DNA of 49,002 bases from Vulcanimicrobiota bacterium. Its GTDB lineage: Bacteria; Vulcanimicrobiota; Vulcanimicrobiia; Vulcanimicrobiales; Vulcanimicrobiaceae. This document shows, piece by piece, positions 16,759-23,880 of this stretch. Below the pieces are notes generated by a model, which saw only the letters and a list, made by a program, of their open reading frames with translations, ran no database searches and was not told where the DNA came from. The translations under genes were made by a program, and so were the position numbers. Within the stretch, counting starts at the first letter, position 1. Each line of letters begins with the position of its first letter. Location: assembly GCA_013036315.1 (NCBI GenBank), contig JAAXMC010000066.1, positions 1-49,002 on the forward strand. The letters run 5' to 3'.

Positions 16759-18020
16759 GCGACGGACTGCGCTCGGCGCCACGCTTCACGAAACCCCGGA
16801 AAACTGACGTCGACGGCTGCGCCGTCATCGATGCTTAGTTCGCCCCCGCCCGCGGCGAGCGCCGCGGCAGCCATGGCGGTGCGGTGATCTCCGTGCGTTT
16901 CAATCGCCGCCCCTCGCATCTTGGGAGTTCCGCCGCTTATCGCGATACCGTCGGCCAGCGTTCGAACGGAAATACCGGCGGCCCCTAACAAGCGAACGAT
17001 CGCGGCGACGCGATCCGATTCCTTATTGCGCAGATCGCGCACGCCGGTGATCTGCGTTTCGCCTTCCGCGAACGCCGCGGCTACAGCCAGAACCGGAATC
17101 TCGTCGATAGCCCGCAGCGCTATGGCGGGTCCGATGGAGACGCCGCGCAGGCGCATCGACTCTACAATGATGTCGGCGATCGGCTCGCCGCTCTGCTCGC
17201 GCTCGTTTTCAAGACGGATGCGCGCGCCCATCGCCTGCAGCGCGTCGAGCAAACCGGTACGGGTCGGATTCACTCCCACGTTTTCGATGCGCACGGAGCT
17301 GCCGGGCGTGACCGTCGCAGCCACGATAAAAAATGCGGCCGCCGAAAGATCTCCGGCTACGTCAAGCGGCTTGAAATCGCGCGGCGGGGAGCGCAGCTCG
17401 ATGAGTTCACCATCGCTTACAATGCCGGCGTCCCAATAGCGCAGCAGCCGCTCCGTATGATCGCGCGAACCTTTGTCGCCGCGAATCGTAACCGGAACGC
17501 GGCCGAACACGCCTGCCAGCAGCAGCGCCGTTTTTATTTGAGCGGAAGGCGAGAGAAGAATGAAGTTGCGGGTCTGCGGTTCCGGCGTACCGGCTACGTC
17601 TGCCGGAAGATTTCCGCCGGTCGTTTGTATGCGCGCGCCAAAGGCGCGCAGCTGAGCTGCGACCGGTTCCATCGGGCGGCCGCGCAGCGATGAATCGCCG
17701 TCGAAATGCGCGCGCAGGTTTCCGCCGGCGCATACGCCCATCAGCATGCGCGCGGTCGATCCTGAGTTCATGCAGTCGATCGTGGCGCCCGGAGCGCGCA
17801 GACTGCCGCCTGCAACCACGGCATCGTCGCCGTTCCATGTAATAACCGCGCCCAGCGCGCGCAGGCCCTCACAGGTCGCTGCGACGTCGCGGCCGGGGTT
17901 GAGATTGCGAACGAAGACCGGCTGCGAGCCGCTTGCGGCCAGGATGAGCGCGCGATGCGAAATGGACTTGTCGCCGGGAACGCGGACGGTGCCGCCCAGC
18001 GCTCCCGGCGCGAAGATCAA
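16755..18020 (-). CDS. aroA: 3-phosphoshikimate 1-carboxyvinyltransferase (EPSP synthase)
   Basis: Sixth step of the shikimate pathway: transfers enolpyruvyl from PEP to shikimate-3-phosphate. Motifs: VRVPGDKSISHRALILAA near the N-terminus, NSGSTARMLMG, SLRGRPMEPV, GDKGSRDHTERLL, and near the end IRNKESDR-like RNKESDRVAAIVRLL and HGDHRTAMAAA. About 420 residues from the TTG at 18020, which is typical. This TTG overlaps the upstream TGA (TTGA), a coupling-type start with GGGGAAG upstream. An ATG at 18059 would overlap the neighbouring secreted-protein gene by 43 bases and lacks a ribosome binding site. Class II (GDKS) type by its PEP-site motif. Confidence 0.9.
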   Translation of the reverse strand: MIFAPGALGGTVRVPGDKSISHRALILAASGSQPVFVRNLNPGRDVAATCEGLRALGAVITWNGDDAVVAGGSLRAPGATIDCMNSGSTARMLMGVCAGGNLRAHFDGDSSLRGRPMEPVAAQLRAFGARIQTTGGNLPADVAGTPEPQTRNFILLSPSAQIKTALLLAGVFGRVPVTIRGDKGSRDHTERLLRYWDAGIVSDGELIELRSPPRDFKPLDVAGDLSAAAFFIVAATVTPGSSVRIENVGVNPTRTGLLDALQAMGARIRLENEREQSGEPIADIIVESMRLRGVSIGPAIALRAIDEIPVLAVAAAFAEGETQITGVRDLRNKESDRVAAIVRLLGAAGISVRTLADGIAISGGTPKMRGAAIETHGDHRTAMAAAALAAGGGELSIDDGAAVDVSFPGFREAWRRAQSVA

Positions 18021-18424
18021 CCGCCGCTTCCCCGCGGGACGAAGCTCGGATTGGTGCATTGCTTGCTGCCGTTGGCGCGCGCGTTGCTCATCGCCGTGAG
18101 CTTCGCTCTGATTGCAGCGGGCCAGCCCTTTGGCTTTTGCGTTCCCACGAGCATCCAGTTGCCGCTTTTCTTGATCCAAAAGTCGGACATCTGTCCGGCA
18201 TAAGATATGTCAACTTGCGCGTAGGTACCGAGAACCACGATCGCCATGATGTACGTTTTGTTTATTTTCTTCGAACCTTTGTGAAGGTTGGCGTTGAAGA
18301 AGTAGATGGTCCCATTTTGGACGTCGAATACGTCCTTGGATGGGCCACACATTGCGGCCATCGCGGGCCGAGGGATGAATGACAGGGCGACGCCAAGAGC
18401 GCCGGCTATCAAAAGAGATCGCAT
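18017..18424 (-). CDS. Secreted protein, tandem paralog 2
   Basis: 135 residues from the ATG at 18424 (GGAGACA lies just before it). Signal peptide ends near RPAMAAM. The mature protein starts MCGP and has a beta-rich body (KKINKTYIMAIVVLGTYAQV, then DFWIKKSGNWMLVG) with a second Cys near the end (SKQCTNPSF). It aligns along its whole length with the gene at 18455-18865. No family recognised. Its TGA overlaps the likely aroA start, so aroA translation may depend on it. Confidence 0.75.
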   Translation of the reverse strand: MRSLLIAGALGVALSFIPRPAMAAMCGPSKDVFDVQNGTIYFFNANLHKGSKKINKTYIMAIVVLGTYAQVDISYAGQMSDFWIKKSGNWMLVGTQKPKGWPAAIRAKLTAMSNARANGSKQCTNPSFVPRGSGG

Positions 18425-18454
18425 ATGTCTCCGTTCTTTCTTAGTGGGCAAGAA

Positions 18455-18865
18455 TCAACCCGAACTCGATCGGTTTTTCCAATTTGGATTAATGCACTGC
18501 TTGCTGCCACTGGATGTCTCGCCGCTCATCTTATTGAGCTTAACGGCGACCGAAGCTGGCCAACCTTTTGGCGCTTGTTGTCCGGCGTACGTCCAGTTGC
18601 CGCTTTTCTCAATCCAAAACTGGAAGATTGGTCCCTGCGGAAAATCCAAGTTCACTTCCGCATAGGTACCGAGAATCGCAATCGACATGATGTATGTCTT
18701 GTCGATTTTTTTCGAATTCTTACCCGCGGTAGCGTTGTAATTGTAGACCGTTCTCGTTGCGATGACGGCCACGTCACCGGATGGGCCGCACATTGCGGCG
18801 ATCGCGGGCCGGGGAATGAACGACGCGGCGACGACAAGAGCGCCGGCTAGGAAAAGAATGCGCAT
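18455..18865 (-). CDS. Secreted protein, tandem paralog 1
   Basis: 136 residues from the ATG at 18865. The signal peptide, the AMCGP mature start, KKIDKTYIMSIAILGTYAEV and KQCINPNW match the downstream paralog; both keep two Cys that could pair. Longer in-frame starts read from inside tRNA-Leu and are unlikely. The pair looks like a recent tandem duplication lying between tRNA-Leu and aroA. Function unknown; exported by signal peptide. Confidence 0.75.
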   Translation of the reverse strand: MRILFLAGALVVAASFIPRPAIAAMCGPSGDVAVIATRTVYNYNATAGKNSKKIDKTYIMSIAILGTYAEVNLDFPQGPIFQFWIEKSGNWTYAGQQAPKGWPASVAVKLNKMSGETSSGSKQCINPNWKNRSSSG

Positions 18866-18883
18866 AGATCTCCGATCCTTGAG

Positions 18884-18968
18884 TGGTAGGGAAGGAGGGA
18901 TTTGAACCCTCACGGGGTTTGCCCGGCCGCTTTTGAGGCGGCTGCGTCTACCGTTCCGCCACTTCCCC
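18884..18968 (-). tRNA. tRNA-Leu (CAA)
   Basis: On the minus strand the acceptor GGGGAAG pairs with CTTCCCT, discriminator A, CCA encoded (18886-18884). Anticodon stem GCCGC/GCGGC with loop CTCAAAA; CAA complements 18933-18935. Long variable arm. The permease-glycosidase reading frame on the same strand ends at 18910, inside this tRNA. Confidence 0.96.
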
Positions 18969-21900
18969 GGGCTATCGGCAAAGGCGGCAATTTCGCGAAT
19001 GCCGCGAGGGCTGCCTGCGCTTGCGCAACGCCCGTTGTAGATGCAACGCCGATGCGAACCTCGCCGGTTCCGCGGACGGAAAACATCAGCGTGAGGAGCG
19101 CGCTGTCCGGGTTCCGTTCAATCTTGTGTTCTTGTGCGTCGGCCGGCGGCCACGCGATCTCCACGACGCGGTGTTTGGCTGGGTCGTATAGCCCATAACC
19201 ATTCGTCGCGCCGAGAATGCGCGTTGCGGGCGTGATCGCAAATGACGTCAGCTGCTCGGCGCGTTGTGTGACCGAACTCGCGAACCATGCCGTCGTTCTC
19301 ACTGTGAGGACCCGCAGTCCCGGATAGAATCGAATCTCTTTCTCGAACGTGCCACCCTTCGGCGGAGCATCGGGTGCCTTATATGCGAAATACATCGAAT
19401 GTTGAGCGACATTCGCTGTGCTTGAGTAACAGCGGTTGAACGTGCCGGTCGCGATTGGATGTGTGTACCGCGCGATATAATCTCGCTTTGAGGGTAGCAA
19501 TGTTTGCGACCAAGCATCGCGGAATGCGCCAACCGTTGTGAACAAATTCTCGTGCGCCGGCTTGTACTCGAGGACAAACGCGCGCGCCCCGGCACACGGC
19601 GATACGATGAGCCTCAAGAGCGCATTCTCCATCACGGCAGCTCGATATCCGTCGCGAAATGTTTGCGCTCCGTCATAAGGCATCCAGCTGCCGGGCCGCA
19701 GTGGCAGTCGTTCGCCGCGTTGGAGCGGCGGCTCCGGTTGTATCAGAGGCTTGACGCGCGGAAATGCGCTTTCAGGAGCGTTAATCGGAATCAAGCCCGC
19801 GTCGCGGGCAGGTACAGTAAACGCGGGGGATGTCGCGTGTAGATATTTTGCGTAAATCTGAGCCTCGGGCACGTATTGTGGTTTGTTCGTGTAGTTGACG
19901 ATGCTCAACAGCGCGAAATGTTCGGTGGGATCGGCAAGCAGCACGGCATTTGGAATCCCCCCCGCGGCCGGATGCAAAATCTTTAGGCTCCTGACGTTCG
20001 CAACGGGCCGGCCCCCGCGGGCGCCATAGGTTACCAGTTTTTTCCGAACGGCGGAAACGAATGTCAAATTGTGCGGACCGGGCGGAATGACGATGACGGG
20101 ATAAAGCTGCAAATCCCGGGCGGAAATAAATCGCAGGTCGACAACCGCACATGTGATGCGCGCCATGCGGCAATCGCGCTGGGCGTCCATCGTGGCCTGC
20201 GCAATGGAGAAAACGGCGGCCTTCGTGAGCGCCGCCGGATCGTAGGCGCTTGTCAGATACGCAATCGCAGCGTCCGCCTTCACATGCATCCGCGCGAGCA
20301 GCGGGCCGTAGGTATGGATCAGCTCGCCGAACCGGTAGGTCGGCAGCCAGCGGCTTTGATGCGTCAATTGTAGCGCCAGCGCCGCATCCCAAGAATAAAA
20401 TGCATTCGCCCACGGTGCCTCCCAGCCGGCCGGATTGAACGTGTCTTGCACCGGAAAGTTGACAACGCCGCGCGCGCCCTGCTGAAGAAGGGTGTTGAGC
20501 GCGAGCGTGGTGTTGCTGGGATCTGCCGGCCGAGGAAATGCTTGATCGGCGCCTTGTAGCCAACCCGCTTGAAATTCGCTGACCATCACCGGCATGTGGG
20601 GCTGCGTTGCGATCAACCCCGTCGAGAACTCGAGCTGCGAGCGATCGTGTTCGCCGATACTGTAAGCGTCGCTTTGATACCAATTCCCCCACGCCCACAC
20701 CGGCGCCGACGCCGTCACTTTCATGTCGTAAGTGTTTATGAAGAGCGGCACGTGCGCCCCGACGCTGCCGCGCACGACCGATGCGAGATAACGAATGTAC
20801 TTTTGAAAGTGCGGCGCGGGCCAGGTTTGGTTGTCGAGGTATGCGCCCTGATCGTCGTCGAGCGCGATGGCGATGACGTCTCGCTGCCACGGCGCAACCG
20901 CCTGCAGCACACGATCCAGCCAGCGTGTTGCGTACCGCATGTGCGTGCCATTGCGCATCCACTCCGCCGCAGCATCGTCGGATTGCTGGTTCTGCAACGT
21001 TGCGGTTGCGGGATACCGCCCTTCCAAGACGTCGCGCAGCGGCATGTTGTATTCGGGTCTCTCGAGCAGCCAGTCCGGGTAGCCGCCGTTGCGCCATTCA
21101 TTGCGTATAACGGGGCCGGGCCGCAGGATTACTTTCAAACCGTACCGGTCGATGATGCGCAGCAATCCCAGAAGGTCGCGGCGCGAGTTCGTGCGGCCGT
21201 TGAAATCAAACGAACCGTCGCGTACCTCGTGCCAGTTCCACATGACGTAGAGATCGATCGTGTTGATCCCGAGCATCCGGTACTGCGCAATCGAAGCCTC
21301 CCACTGCGCGCGCGGGATCCGTTCGTAGAAAAAAGCCGCTCCATAAATGAAGAACGGCTTGCCGCCGACCGTGTAAACGGGATAACCGCTGCGCTGGACG
21401 ACCGCGCTGCCCGGCCACGCCGCAGCGCGAGCAGTCGTGGGCTGTGCAAAACACAATCCAACGATCAGCGCGGCCGCGAACGGCCAGCGGCGTTGAGCTT
21501 TGGCGGTCAAGAGATACGCGAGCACGCCGACGAGCAGCCATCCGAGGCCGAGCTCGATCGCGCGCGTTCCGGTATAGGCAAATGCGTAGAGCCAGCCCGC
21601 GAGCGCGACGATCGCCGGCAGCGGATAGAGCCACATGCGAAAGGGCGCCGGTTCGTGGCGCGCACGCATGATGAACAGAGCCACGATTTGCATGACGCCT
21701 TGAATCAAGACGATGCCCGCCGTCAGGATCGCGATGACGTCGCCCAACTGAAAAAAGCATGCCAGCAGTGCGGCGCTTCCGATCACCAGGAGCGCCACAT
21801 CGGGAAACTGGCCGCGGGGATGCAAGTGTGCGAAGGGCCGGAAAAACTCGCCATCCTTAGCAGCTGCATACGGGATGCGGGCAAAACCGACGAGGTTTCC

Positions 21901-22785
21901 GTACACCGAGGCAAACGCGGTTGCCAGGATAAGGACCGTCACGACGCGAGCCGCGAGGGGACCCCAAGACTCCGCCACAACGGACGACGCGATGAACTGC
22001 GGATCGCCGGCGGGAACGCCATGCGCGAGGATGCCGATCTGCAACGCGACGTACAGTGCCGCCACGATCAGGATTGAGAAGAGCACGGCGAGCGGAATCG
22101 TGCGATGCGGATGCTTGACCTCGTCGCCGAGTAGCGCCGCATCGCCGTATCCAAGGTAGTCGTAGAGCGTGATGTACAACGCCCCGCCCAGGCCGGCTAA
22201 GAATCCAACACCGAGCTTCACGTGCGGCGGCAATACAAATGCTTGCTGAATGTGCGAATGCGGCAGAAATGCCGCTGCCATGACGGCCAGCAAGGTGAGG
22301 ACCGCGATGACTGCAAAGACCGAGCCGGTCATAGCGATTGCGGTAATGCGACGGTACAGGAGCACGACAGTCAATACGCCTACGGCAATGGCAGTTGCCA
22401 CTTGCCCGGCATGCGATGCGCCGATGCCCGGAACCAAATAGCCCAGGTAAATCGCAAACCCGAGATAGCCGGTTGCAAGAATACACGGCGCAAACAACAG
22501 GAACTGCCAGTTGAAGAGAAACGCGAAGAGCCTGCCCCAACGATCGCGCCCGAAGATCTCGCGTAAGTATACGTAGGTGCCCCCGCTTCCAGGATAGCGC
22601 GAGGAAAGCTCGGCCCAAACCAAGCCGTCGCATAATGCAACGATTGCTCCGGCGATCCACCCGATCAGCGCTAACGGCCCGGCCAGCTGCGCCAGGACGA
22701 GTGGAATCGTGATCAGCGGGCCGATGCCGACCATCGTGATCACGTTGATCGCGACGGCGCTGCGCAAACCGATGCCGCGTATCAT
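18910..22785 (-). CDS. APC-family permease fused to GH35-like beta-galactosidase domain
   Basis: About 1291 residues from the ATG at 22785; the 30 extra upstream residues overlap the divergent esterase. Residues 1-430 are an APC-superfamily transporter with about 12 helices (GLVWAELSSRYPGSGGTYVY, then GDEVKHPHRTIPLAV). At about 432-455 comes a signal-peptide-like segment ending TARAAAW. From about 465 a GH35-type TIM barrel follows: GAAFFYERIPRAQWE, MWNWHEVRDGSFDFNG, ILRPGPVIRNEW, GGYPDWLLE. The acid/base NE-x-G is LDDDQGAY here (D645 in place of Glu), while the nucleophile segment MVSEFQAGWL keeps its Glu (E737). The C-terminus is beta-rich. The stop lies inside tRNA-Leu. The join is open in frame with no stop, so this is a fusion and not two genes, unless the sequence has an error. 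Confidence 0.85.
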   Translation of the reverse strand: MIRGIGLRSAVAINVITMVGIGPLITIPLVLAQLAGPLALIGWIAGAIVALCDGLVWAELSSRYPGSGGTYVYLREIFGRDRWGRLFAFLFNWQFLLFAPCILATGYLGFAIYLGYLVPGIGASHAGQVATAIAVGVLTVVLLYRRITAIAMTGSVFAVIAVLTLLAVMAAAFLPHSHIQQAFVLPPHVKLGVGFLAGLGGALYITLYDYLGYGDAALLGDEVKHPHRTIPLAVLFSILIVAALYVALQIGILAHGVPAGDPQFIASSVVAESWGPLAARVVTVLILATAFASVYGNLVGFARIPYAAAKDGEFFRPFAHLHPRGQFPDVALLVIGSAALLACFFQLGDVIAILTAGIVLIQGVMQIVALFIMRARHEPAPFRMWLYPLPAIVALAGWLYAFAYTGTRAIELGLGWLLVGVLAYLLTAKAQRRWPFAAALIVGLCFAQPTTARAAAWPGSAVVQRSGYPVYTVGGKPFFIYGAAFFYERIPRAQWEASIAQYRMLGINTIDLYVMWNWHEVRDGSFDFNGRTNSRRDLLGLLRIIDRYGLKVILRPGPVIRNEWRNGGYPDWLLERPEYNMPLRDVLEGRYPATATLQNQQSDDAAAEWMRNGTHMRYATRWLDRVLQAVAPWQRDVIAIALDDDQGAYLDNQTWPAPHFQKYIRYLASVVRGSVGAHVPLFINTYDMKVTASAPVWAWGNWYQSDAYSIGEHDRSQLEFSTGLIATQPHMPVMVSEFQAGWLQGADQAFPRPADPSNTTLALNTLLQQGARGVVNFPVQDTFNPAGWEAPWANAFYSWDAALALQLTHQSRWLPTYRFGELIHTYGPLLARMHVKADAAIAYLTSAYDPAALTKAAVFSIAQATMDAQRDCRMARITCAVVDLRFISARDLQLYPVIVIPPGPHNLTFVSAVRKKLVTYGARGGRPVANVRSLKILHPAAGGIPNAVLLADPTEHFALLSIVNYTNKPQYVPEAQIYAKYLHATSPAFTVPARDAGLIPINAPESAFPRVKPLIQPEPPLQRGERLPLRPGSWMPYDGAQTFRDGYRAAVMENALLRLIVSPCAGARAFVLEYKPAHENLFTTVGAFRDAWSQTLLPSKRDYIARYTHPIATGTFNRCYSSTANVAQHSMYFAYKAPDAPPKGGTFEKEIRFYPGLRVLTVRTTAWFASSVTQRAEQLTSFAITPATRILGATNGYGLYDPAKHRVVEIAWPPADAQEHKIERNPDSALLTLMFSVRGTGEVRIGVASTTGVAQAQAALAAFAKLPPLPIARGSGGTVDAAASKAAGQTP

Positions 22786-22836
22786 CCGCCGACCTTCGTG
22801 GTAGTGACTCGCGGACCTGGCGGCGAAATCGAAGGT

Positions 22837-23880
22837 ATGAACGAGTCCAAATCCCGGCTCGCGCGTTTGTTGCATCTCGCGGGCGATCTTCGCATCGAGT
22901 TCATCGAAAGCGCGGCGCTAAAGAACAATCCGTTAGGCGATCCCTCCGAGCGCCCCGTCATTGCTTATCTGCCGCCGGGCTACGATCCGCAAGGATCGCG
23001 CCGTTACCCGGTGCTGTACTGCTTACACGGTTATACCGGCGACGCGGCCGCGCTCGTGAGCGCGCGTCCGTGGGAAACGAACGTGGTGCAATGGATCGAT
23101 CGTCTGATTGCGTCGCGGCGCATGCCCGGAGCGATTCTGGCCATCGTCGATGGATTTACGCGGCTAGGCGGTTCGCAATATGTCAATTCAATCCACAACG
23201 GTGATTACGCGACATACGTGATTCGTGACGTCGTCGGTCACGTGGATGCAACATACCGAACGATCGCCGCCGAGGGCGGGCGCGCCGTTTTCGGAAAATC
23301 TTCGGGCGGGTTCGGCGCGCTCTACCTCTGCATGCAATATCCCGGCGTCTTCGCGGCGCTTGCTTCGCACAGCGGCGATTCGTATTTCGAGTACGCTCAC
23401 CCGCGCTCGTTTCCGGACGTGCAGCGCACGCTGGAAAAGCACGGCTGGGACATCGGGGGATTCGTCACGTATTTTGAGGGGCAGCACAAGCGTCAGCCGG
23501 CCGAGTATTCGACCATCGAGATGTTGGGCTACGCGGCCGCGTATTCGCCGCGGAGCGCGAAGGCTTTCGATCTCGAATTGCCCTTCGAGCATCAAACAGG
23601 TGAACTGGACCCCAAAGTATTCGGCCGGTGGCTGGATTTCGATCCGGCGCGCATGTGCATGCAGAAGAAAGCGGAACTGGGGCGCCTGCGCTTGCGTTAC
23701 CTCGATTGCGGCCGCAAGGATGAGTACGGGCTCGACATCGGCGCGCGCGTGATGGCGCGGCGTTTCCGGGAGCTCGGTCTCGACGTGCGGCACGAAGAGT
23801 TCGATGACGATCATCGAAATGTGGGCTACCGTTACGAAATCTCGCTGCCGGCATTAGCCGGCGTTTTGGAGTCGCAGTGA
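22837..23880 (+). CDS. Alpha/beta-hydrolase esterase (esterase D/antigen 85 type)
   Basis: 347 residues from the ATG at 22837. Opening strands RPVIAYLPPGYDP and YPVLYCLHGYTGDA, the nucleophile elbow GKSSGGFGAL with S155, the oxyanion region near LAIVDGFTRLGGSQYVNS, a KDEYGLD motif for the acid and DDDHRNVGYRYE with the catalytic His. This is the putative-esterase (PF00756-like) family; substrate unknown. It diverges from the permease-glycosidase gene (starts 51 bases apart) and is coupled to the next gene by a GTGA overlap. Confidence 0.85.
   Translation: MNESKSRLARLLHLAGDLRIEFIESAALKNNPLGDPSERPVIAYLPPGYDPQGSRRYPVLYCLHGYTGDAAALVSARPWETNVVQWIDRLIASRRMPGAILAIVDGFTRLGGSQYVNSIHNGDYATYVIRDVVGHVDATYRTIAAEGGRAVFGKSSGGFGALYLCMQYPGVFAALASHSGDSYFEYAHPRSFPDVQRTLEKHGWDIGGFVTYFEGQHKRQPAEYSTIEMLGYAAAYSPRSAKAFDLELPFEHQTGELDPKVFGRWLDFDPARMCMQKKAELGRLRLRYLDCGRKDEYGLDIGARVMARRFRELGLDVRHEEFDDDHRNVGYRYEISLPALAGVLESQ

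Follow-up and report, generated by a model that had tools for sequence, protein, structure and literature searches.

In the cytochrome b/c1 polyprotein FbcH of Bradyrhizobium, one reading frame runs from a polytopic membrane protein through an internal signal into a periplasmic domain, and signal peptidase cuts the product. Permeases of the APC superfamily have both termini in the cytoplasm and typically carry amino acids. In the SLC3-SLC7 systems (4F2hc, rBAT), an APC-type transporter is paired with an extracellular ectodomain that has the fold of a glycosidase barrel and no known activity (PMC8537225). Among glycosidases, TkGlmA binds the amino group of its substrate through Asp178 and uses Glu179 as acid/base; the glycoside hydrolase family 2 (GH2) glucosaminidase CsxA has an Asp as acid/base (PMC6566704). 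Here, we describe a gene that joins an APC permease, through a signal-peptide-like segment, to a glycoside hydrolase family 35 (GH35)-like protein. The gene lies in contig JAAXMC010000066.1 of a Vulcanimicrobiota bacterium (assembly GCA_013036315.1); the whole stretch analysed, 49,002 nucleotides long, is referred to as the window. To our knowledge, no fusion of an APC permease to a glycosidase has been described, and a full-text search of largely open literature found no transporter-glycosidase fusion. The best explanation as a whole, to which we give about even weight, is a two-protein unit encoded in one frame, from which an exported enzyme would be cut free and would release a hexosamine for import.

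The fused gene occupies positions 18910-22785 of the reverse strand, stop codon included, and encodes 1291 amino acids; all positions given below for its parts are on the same strand. An earlier note, made from the sequence alone, had read it as a single open frame running from a 12-helix transporter (about residues 1-430) through a junction into a GH35-type barrel. The frame agrees: there are no stops between the ATG at 22785 and the stop codon at 18910-18912. The order of the protein is a 12-helix permease (residues 1-430), the signal-peptide-like segment (431-454) and the GH35-like glycosidase (455-1291). Pfam recognises both halves, AA_permease_2 at residues 6-403 (4e-28) and Glyco_hydro_35 at 473-580 (1.5e-32). 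A start candidate 90 bp upstream, at 22875, is not conserved, and homologues begin at the residue matching 22785.

The host family consists of soil bacteria, and its named relatives are metagenome-assembled genomes (MAGs) of Candidatus Eremiobacterota/Vulcanimicrobiota. The genome that contains the window is itself a MAG, 57% complete and in 134 contigs. Hence, an assembly artefact, or the loss of a stop codon between two adjacent genes, had to be ruled out, the more so as relatives with separate genes exist. The same uninterrupted frame was found in 48 of 99 genomes of the family and in all seven of the genus, including assemblies of only 5-9 contigs. Because independent assemblies carry the same fusion, a mis-join or a missed frameshift is untenable. 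Within the genus, the permease had pairwise ratios of nonsynonymous to synonymous substitution (dN/dS) of 0.04-0.08 and the junction 0.07-0.20; in the enzyme, the barrel had 0.04-0.09 and the remainder 0.13-0.23. Permease, junction and enzyme are all under purifying selection. The separate permeases of relatives, moreover, do not adjoin the enzyme gene. We rejected the artefact, which has next to no probability given the 48 genomes and the low dN/dS through the junction. The earlier note would have given up the fusion if relatives had the two parts as separate genes and the window had a frameshift or missing stop. Such relatives do exist, but the window has neither fault, and at least one genus reached the separate state secondarily (see below). 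No fusion was found in 117 genomes of the same class outside the family, two of which have the permease only. The fusion is real, old and selected; it is a conserved, ancient trait of the family and not a local oddity.

About half of the family genomes keep the fusion. Others have no permease at this position and usually have a homologous permease elsewhere. A tree of flanking genes needs eight changes between the fused and unfused states, at least five of them forced by well-supported branches. Unfused copies are scattered among fused copies in the enzyme tree. In the permease tree, 22 permeases, none of them fused, form a clade distinct from the fused type; one separate permease (G015) nests within the fused group. 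The clearest case is genus g9, where fused and unfused genes have their upstream DNA and start codon in common. All seven unfused genes retain 16-23 of the 30 bases after the ATG that encode the permease N-terminus MIRGVGLRSAV (codon shuffling, p ≤ 0.017 for each gene). Since the start codon and first codons are kept, the unfused g9 enzyme is most simply a fused gene minus the permease body, an in-frame deletion having left a normal N-terminal signal peptide. Judged by these retained codons, the separate state is derived in at least this genus. The simplest history would be a single ancient fusion from which the permease half was lost again and again. A separate permease that was an adjacent gene before fusion was rejected; separate copies lie at other loci, the closest about 11 kb away (G129).

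The permease half (residues 1-430, positions 21496-22785) scores 98.9 bits against AA_permease_2, for which the curated cut-off is 27. An AlphaFold model built on 31 aligned sequences shows, with confidence (predicted local distance difference test, pLDDT, 86), an APC fold of 12 helices, of which helices 1 and 6 are broken. Foldseek ranks BasC, y+LAT1 and LAT1 at the top. Both profile and fold place this half in the APC superfamily. BasC and the SLC7 proteins (LAT1, y+LAT1, xCT) are the nearest solved relatives by sequence and fold, at about 23% identity; unlike the fused protein, they have no enzyme in the chain, and they carry amino acids. A nearly invariant Asp, D209 (window about 22159-22161), lies in broken helix 6, where amino-acid-carrying relatives have a small neutral residue. 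This residue fits a cationic substrate.

Past helix 12, the chain reads ...AKAQRRWPF; a hydrophobic core some 12 residues long leads from there to ...PTTARA|AAW. Alignments, counts of charges and AxA motifs, and the AlphaFold model delimit an internal signal-peptide-like segment at residues 431-454 (QRRWPF AAALIVGLCFAQPTT ARA; positions 21424-21495); the junction quoted in the earlier note falls at residues 432-451, with ARA|AAW at 452-457. The segment has the hallmarks of a Sec signal peptide cut by signal peptidase I, namely a positive n-region, a hydrophobic core within the range of 7-15 residues, and AxA. In 49 fused proteins, the 12 residues before the tryptophan carry on average 2.5 positive and 0.14 negative charges; positive charges lie ahead of the core and none after it. 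The AxA motif (A452-R453-A454, positions 21424-21432), after which signal peptidase I is predicted to cut, is present in 46 of the 49 proteins though the core sequence varies. Shuffled residues gave 35.7 ± 2.9 such proteins, with a maximum of 46 in 2000 shuffles. Stand-alone proteins part at the same place. In genus g10, and in many members of the separate clade, the stand-alone permease stops right past the same WPF point; others stop a few residues earlier. Most stand-alone enzymes have a signal peptide of their own, of ordinary type, that starts at the alignment position of the junction. The view that a secreted-enzyme gene was joined in frame to a permease is supported. As APC termini are cytoplasmic, the segment would place the enzyme outside, and its location on the outer side of the membrane and the possible cut, both suggested earlier, are supported as predictions.

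If the segment were not cut, it would be a 13th membrane helix and the enzyme would be tethered over the outer mouth of the permease, for hand-over of product or as an ancillary ectodomain like 4F2hc or rBAT. We consider this unlikely. It draws support from the fold of the permease half, closest to SLC7 light chains and BasC, and from the long conservation of the fusion across many genera. Conversely, the core has about 12 residues, and in the AlphaFold model it forms no packed 13th helix: helix is predicted over ten residues only (437-446), at low confidence, and the chain after it is disordered. AxA is retained while the core varies, stand-alone enzymes with cleavable-looking signals work without a tether, and permease halves have been lost several times. 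The short core and conserved AxA favour the predicted cleavage over permanent tethering. The uncut version would be, improbable as it seems, a bacterial transporter that carries a glycosidase-fold ectodomain in the same chain, convergent with SLC3-SLC7 and handing amino sugars over directly. The likeness to SLC3-SLC7 is the pairing of an APC-type transporter with an extracellular glycosidase-fold barrel (PMC8537225). However, those systems have two chains, with a GH13-like ectodomain of no proven activity on its own type II membrane helix, whereas the fused protein is one chain, GH35-like, with a C-terminal enzyme behind a signal-peptide-like junction. Hence, the separate type II heavy chain with GH13-like ectodomain that marks a heteromeric amino acid transporter is lacking. 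The cleaved protein would work much like FbcH, as a membrane-periplasm polyprotein, though FbcH supplies respiratory complex subunits and the sequences are unrelated. Internal-signal polyproteins gave no match in our literature search. A separate enzyme made from an internal translation start was rejected, no start with a convincing ribosome-binding site being found near the junction in 47 genes. The unfused enzymes L070, L072, L082 and L086 (genera g37, g10 and g30) have a very short leader (MHACLMLLGLLW, MHLLIAALLAW) with no positive charges and no AxA.

The enzyme half was modelled with a pLDDT of 87 as a (β/α)8 barrel followed by mostly β domains. Pfam, sequence matches, the model and a fold search agree on the GH35-like barrel (residues 471-830, positions 20296-21375). 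The Glyco_hydro_35 profile scores 113.9 bits against a curated cut-off of 27 and covers only profile positions 4-107 of 319. Residues 831-1265 (positions 18991-20295) form the C-terminal, mostly β part of the model and have no Pfam match; in the fused relatives L026/L126, L027/L124, L115, L117 and L125, which reach at least 1400 amino acids, the C-terminal enzyme parts are longer. By fold, the four best solved structures are archaeal GlmA exo-β-D-glucosaminidases, and sequence comparison, too, puts these enzymes among its top four matches. GlmA is likewise the best NCBIfam enzyme family, at 118 bits and so far below the equivalog cut-off of 1500. Whole-model template-modelling (TM) scores are low, at 0.42-0.48 overall and 0.42-0.44 for GlmA, because the domains after the barrel differ. 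Next in fold rank after the GlmA structures comes a GH35 neighbour of GlmA, the β-1,2-glucosyltransferase IaSGT (7vkx), which is cytosolic and has Asn-Glu where the fused-enzyme family has Asp-Asp (PMC8861115).

Alignments and the model place an invariant D643-D644-D645 (positions 20851-20859) after barrel strand 4; all three Asp of this LDDDQG motif are invariant in 53 sequences. D644 aligns with TIDDE of PhGlmA and appears equivalent to GlmA Asp178, the residue ahead of the acid/base that binds the amino group. The predicted nucleophile, E737 of barrel strand 7 (positions 20575-20577; model strand 280-285), is kept, one partial sequence of 56 not being aligned there. Thus, the fused enzyme resembles GlmA (TkGlmA, 5gsm; PhGlmA, 5gsl) in its best sequence and fold matches, its amino-group Asp and its strand-7 Glu. 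It differs in its acid/base Asp, in its other post-barrel domains, in its predicted export and in its fusion to a permease. An invariant pair of cysteines, C872 and C879 (positions 20149-20172), could form a disulfide and fits one outside the cytoplasm. The GH35-type barrel named earlier stands by fold and profile; it has to be qualified in that its nearest enzymes are GlmA-like, the GH35 profile covers only about its first 110 residues, and the strand-4 acid/base Glu of GH35 is an Asp (D645) in 53 of 53 sequences. Activity is unproven given this replacement, and the half could be a catalytically dead glycosidase fold kept for binding or scaffolding. We think this quite unlikely: the nucleophile and about 100 other positions are invariant, which argues for a constrained site, constraint by dN/dS is stronger in the barrel than elsewhere in the enzyme, and the Asp acid/base of CsxA makes activity possible (PMC6566704).

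The genomes counted, all at least 90% complete, were 38 with the fusion (three of these fused copies being interrupted by a contig end or frameshift) and 14 whose enzyme is separate. A separate homologous permease occurs in 0 of the 38 and in 11 of the 14 (Fisher p 6e-9, relatedness ignored). The cell therefore seems to need both halves, fused or not. In eight loci, the separate permease adjoins a SIS-domain gene whose closest relatives are the GlmS isomerase and the NagB-II glucosamine-6-phosphate deaminase. In several loci of genus g9, it adjoins a type I phosphomannose isomerase. In G057, a genome without a close permease, the SIS gene stands with a GH20 hexosaminidase, another APC permease and a CarboxypepD_reg receptor-like protein (L196:3513-11373), in what is likely, from its gene content, an amino-sugar uptake cluster.

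The preferred reading, a cleaved two-protein unit, would work as follows. The permease would insert with its 12-helix part ending in the cytoplasm. The positively charged, short hydrophobic segment would then act as an internal export signal, taking the enzyme outside the inner membrane. Signal peptidase I would probably cut after A454, so that permease and freed enzyme would be made in a one-to-one ratio. Acting on oligosaccharides, the enzyme would free a hexosamine, glucosamine or one like it, which the permease would import for use by a SIS-type glucosamine-6-phosphate isomerase/deaminase. Our confidence falls from export to cleavage, and again to substrate and uptake. Because lineages with separate proteins persist, fusion would bring its advantage through a fixed stoichiometry and joint control, not through obligate contact. 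Coupling of sugar release to uptake, as the earlier note proposed, is plausible, but chiefly for an amine product such as glucosamine, the permease being of APC type. If true, this would be a natural case of hydrolysis and uptake in one translation unit. It would tie an uncharacterised transporter strongly, on genomic grounds, to the supply of its substrate, with an APC route proposed for glucosamine-type substrates, and would provide a locus for following domain fusion and its precise in-frame undoing.

Besides the substituted acid/base residue, several findings weigh against this working. Ala-rich sequence often gives AxA by chance, and a few stand-alone enzymes have very short leaders and no AxA. 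Five independent pairs agree on the exclusion of fused and separate permeases but are too few for significance. Other findings concern the substrate. The nearest relatives of the permease carry amino acids. In genus g33, the permease locus has an M1 peptidase as neighbour, which cautions that an amino acid may be the substrate. In the genus of the window (L187/L188; G006, G003), the SIS gene lies between genes for a D-Ala-D-Ala carboxypeptidase, a lysA-like protein and a CarboxypepD_reg receptor-like protein, with a phosphomannose isomerase-like gene nearby. This company makes a role in envelope turnover a serious alternative. Hence, the pair may serve something other than glucosamine, with the enzyme acting on other hexosides or envelope glycans and the permease carrying an amino acid or other amine released there; D209 would fit any cationic substrate. 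We regard this as possible, if doubtful, because the enzyme is GlmA-like and keeps the amino-group-binding Asp, and a GlmS/NagB-II-type SIS gene lies beside the permease in eight loci. APC glucosamine transporters gave no useful match in the literature search.

The enzyme gene, fused or unfused, keeps a constant position in loci with enough flanking sequence, and only the permease half varies. On one side are aroA, an fmdB-like gene and M20; on the other are a divergent putative esterase (22798-23880, forward strand, in the window), a cys/met lyase and PALP-CBS. Two fused loci, both from genus g20, depart from this: L112 lacks the esterase side and L116 lacks both sides. Just downstream of the fusion, at 18017-18451 and 18455-18913 of the reverse strand, is a tandem pair of similar small secreted-type proteins; these match no Pfam family, and relatives were found in the genus only. 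A tRNA-Leu(CAA) gene (18884-18968, reverse strand) follows the enzyme, as it does in 23 of 25 loci checked. The last 19 or so codons of the fused frame are tRNA sequence on the same strand, an overlap present in six of the seven genus genomes and not in G003. Since the stop codon at 18910-18912 lies inside the tRNA gene, 5′ processing of the tRNA, if the two are co-transcribed, would strip the stop codon off the mRNA.

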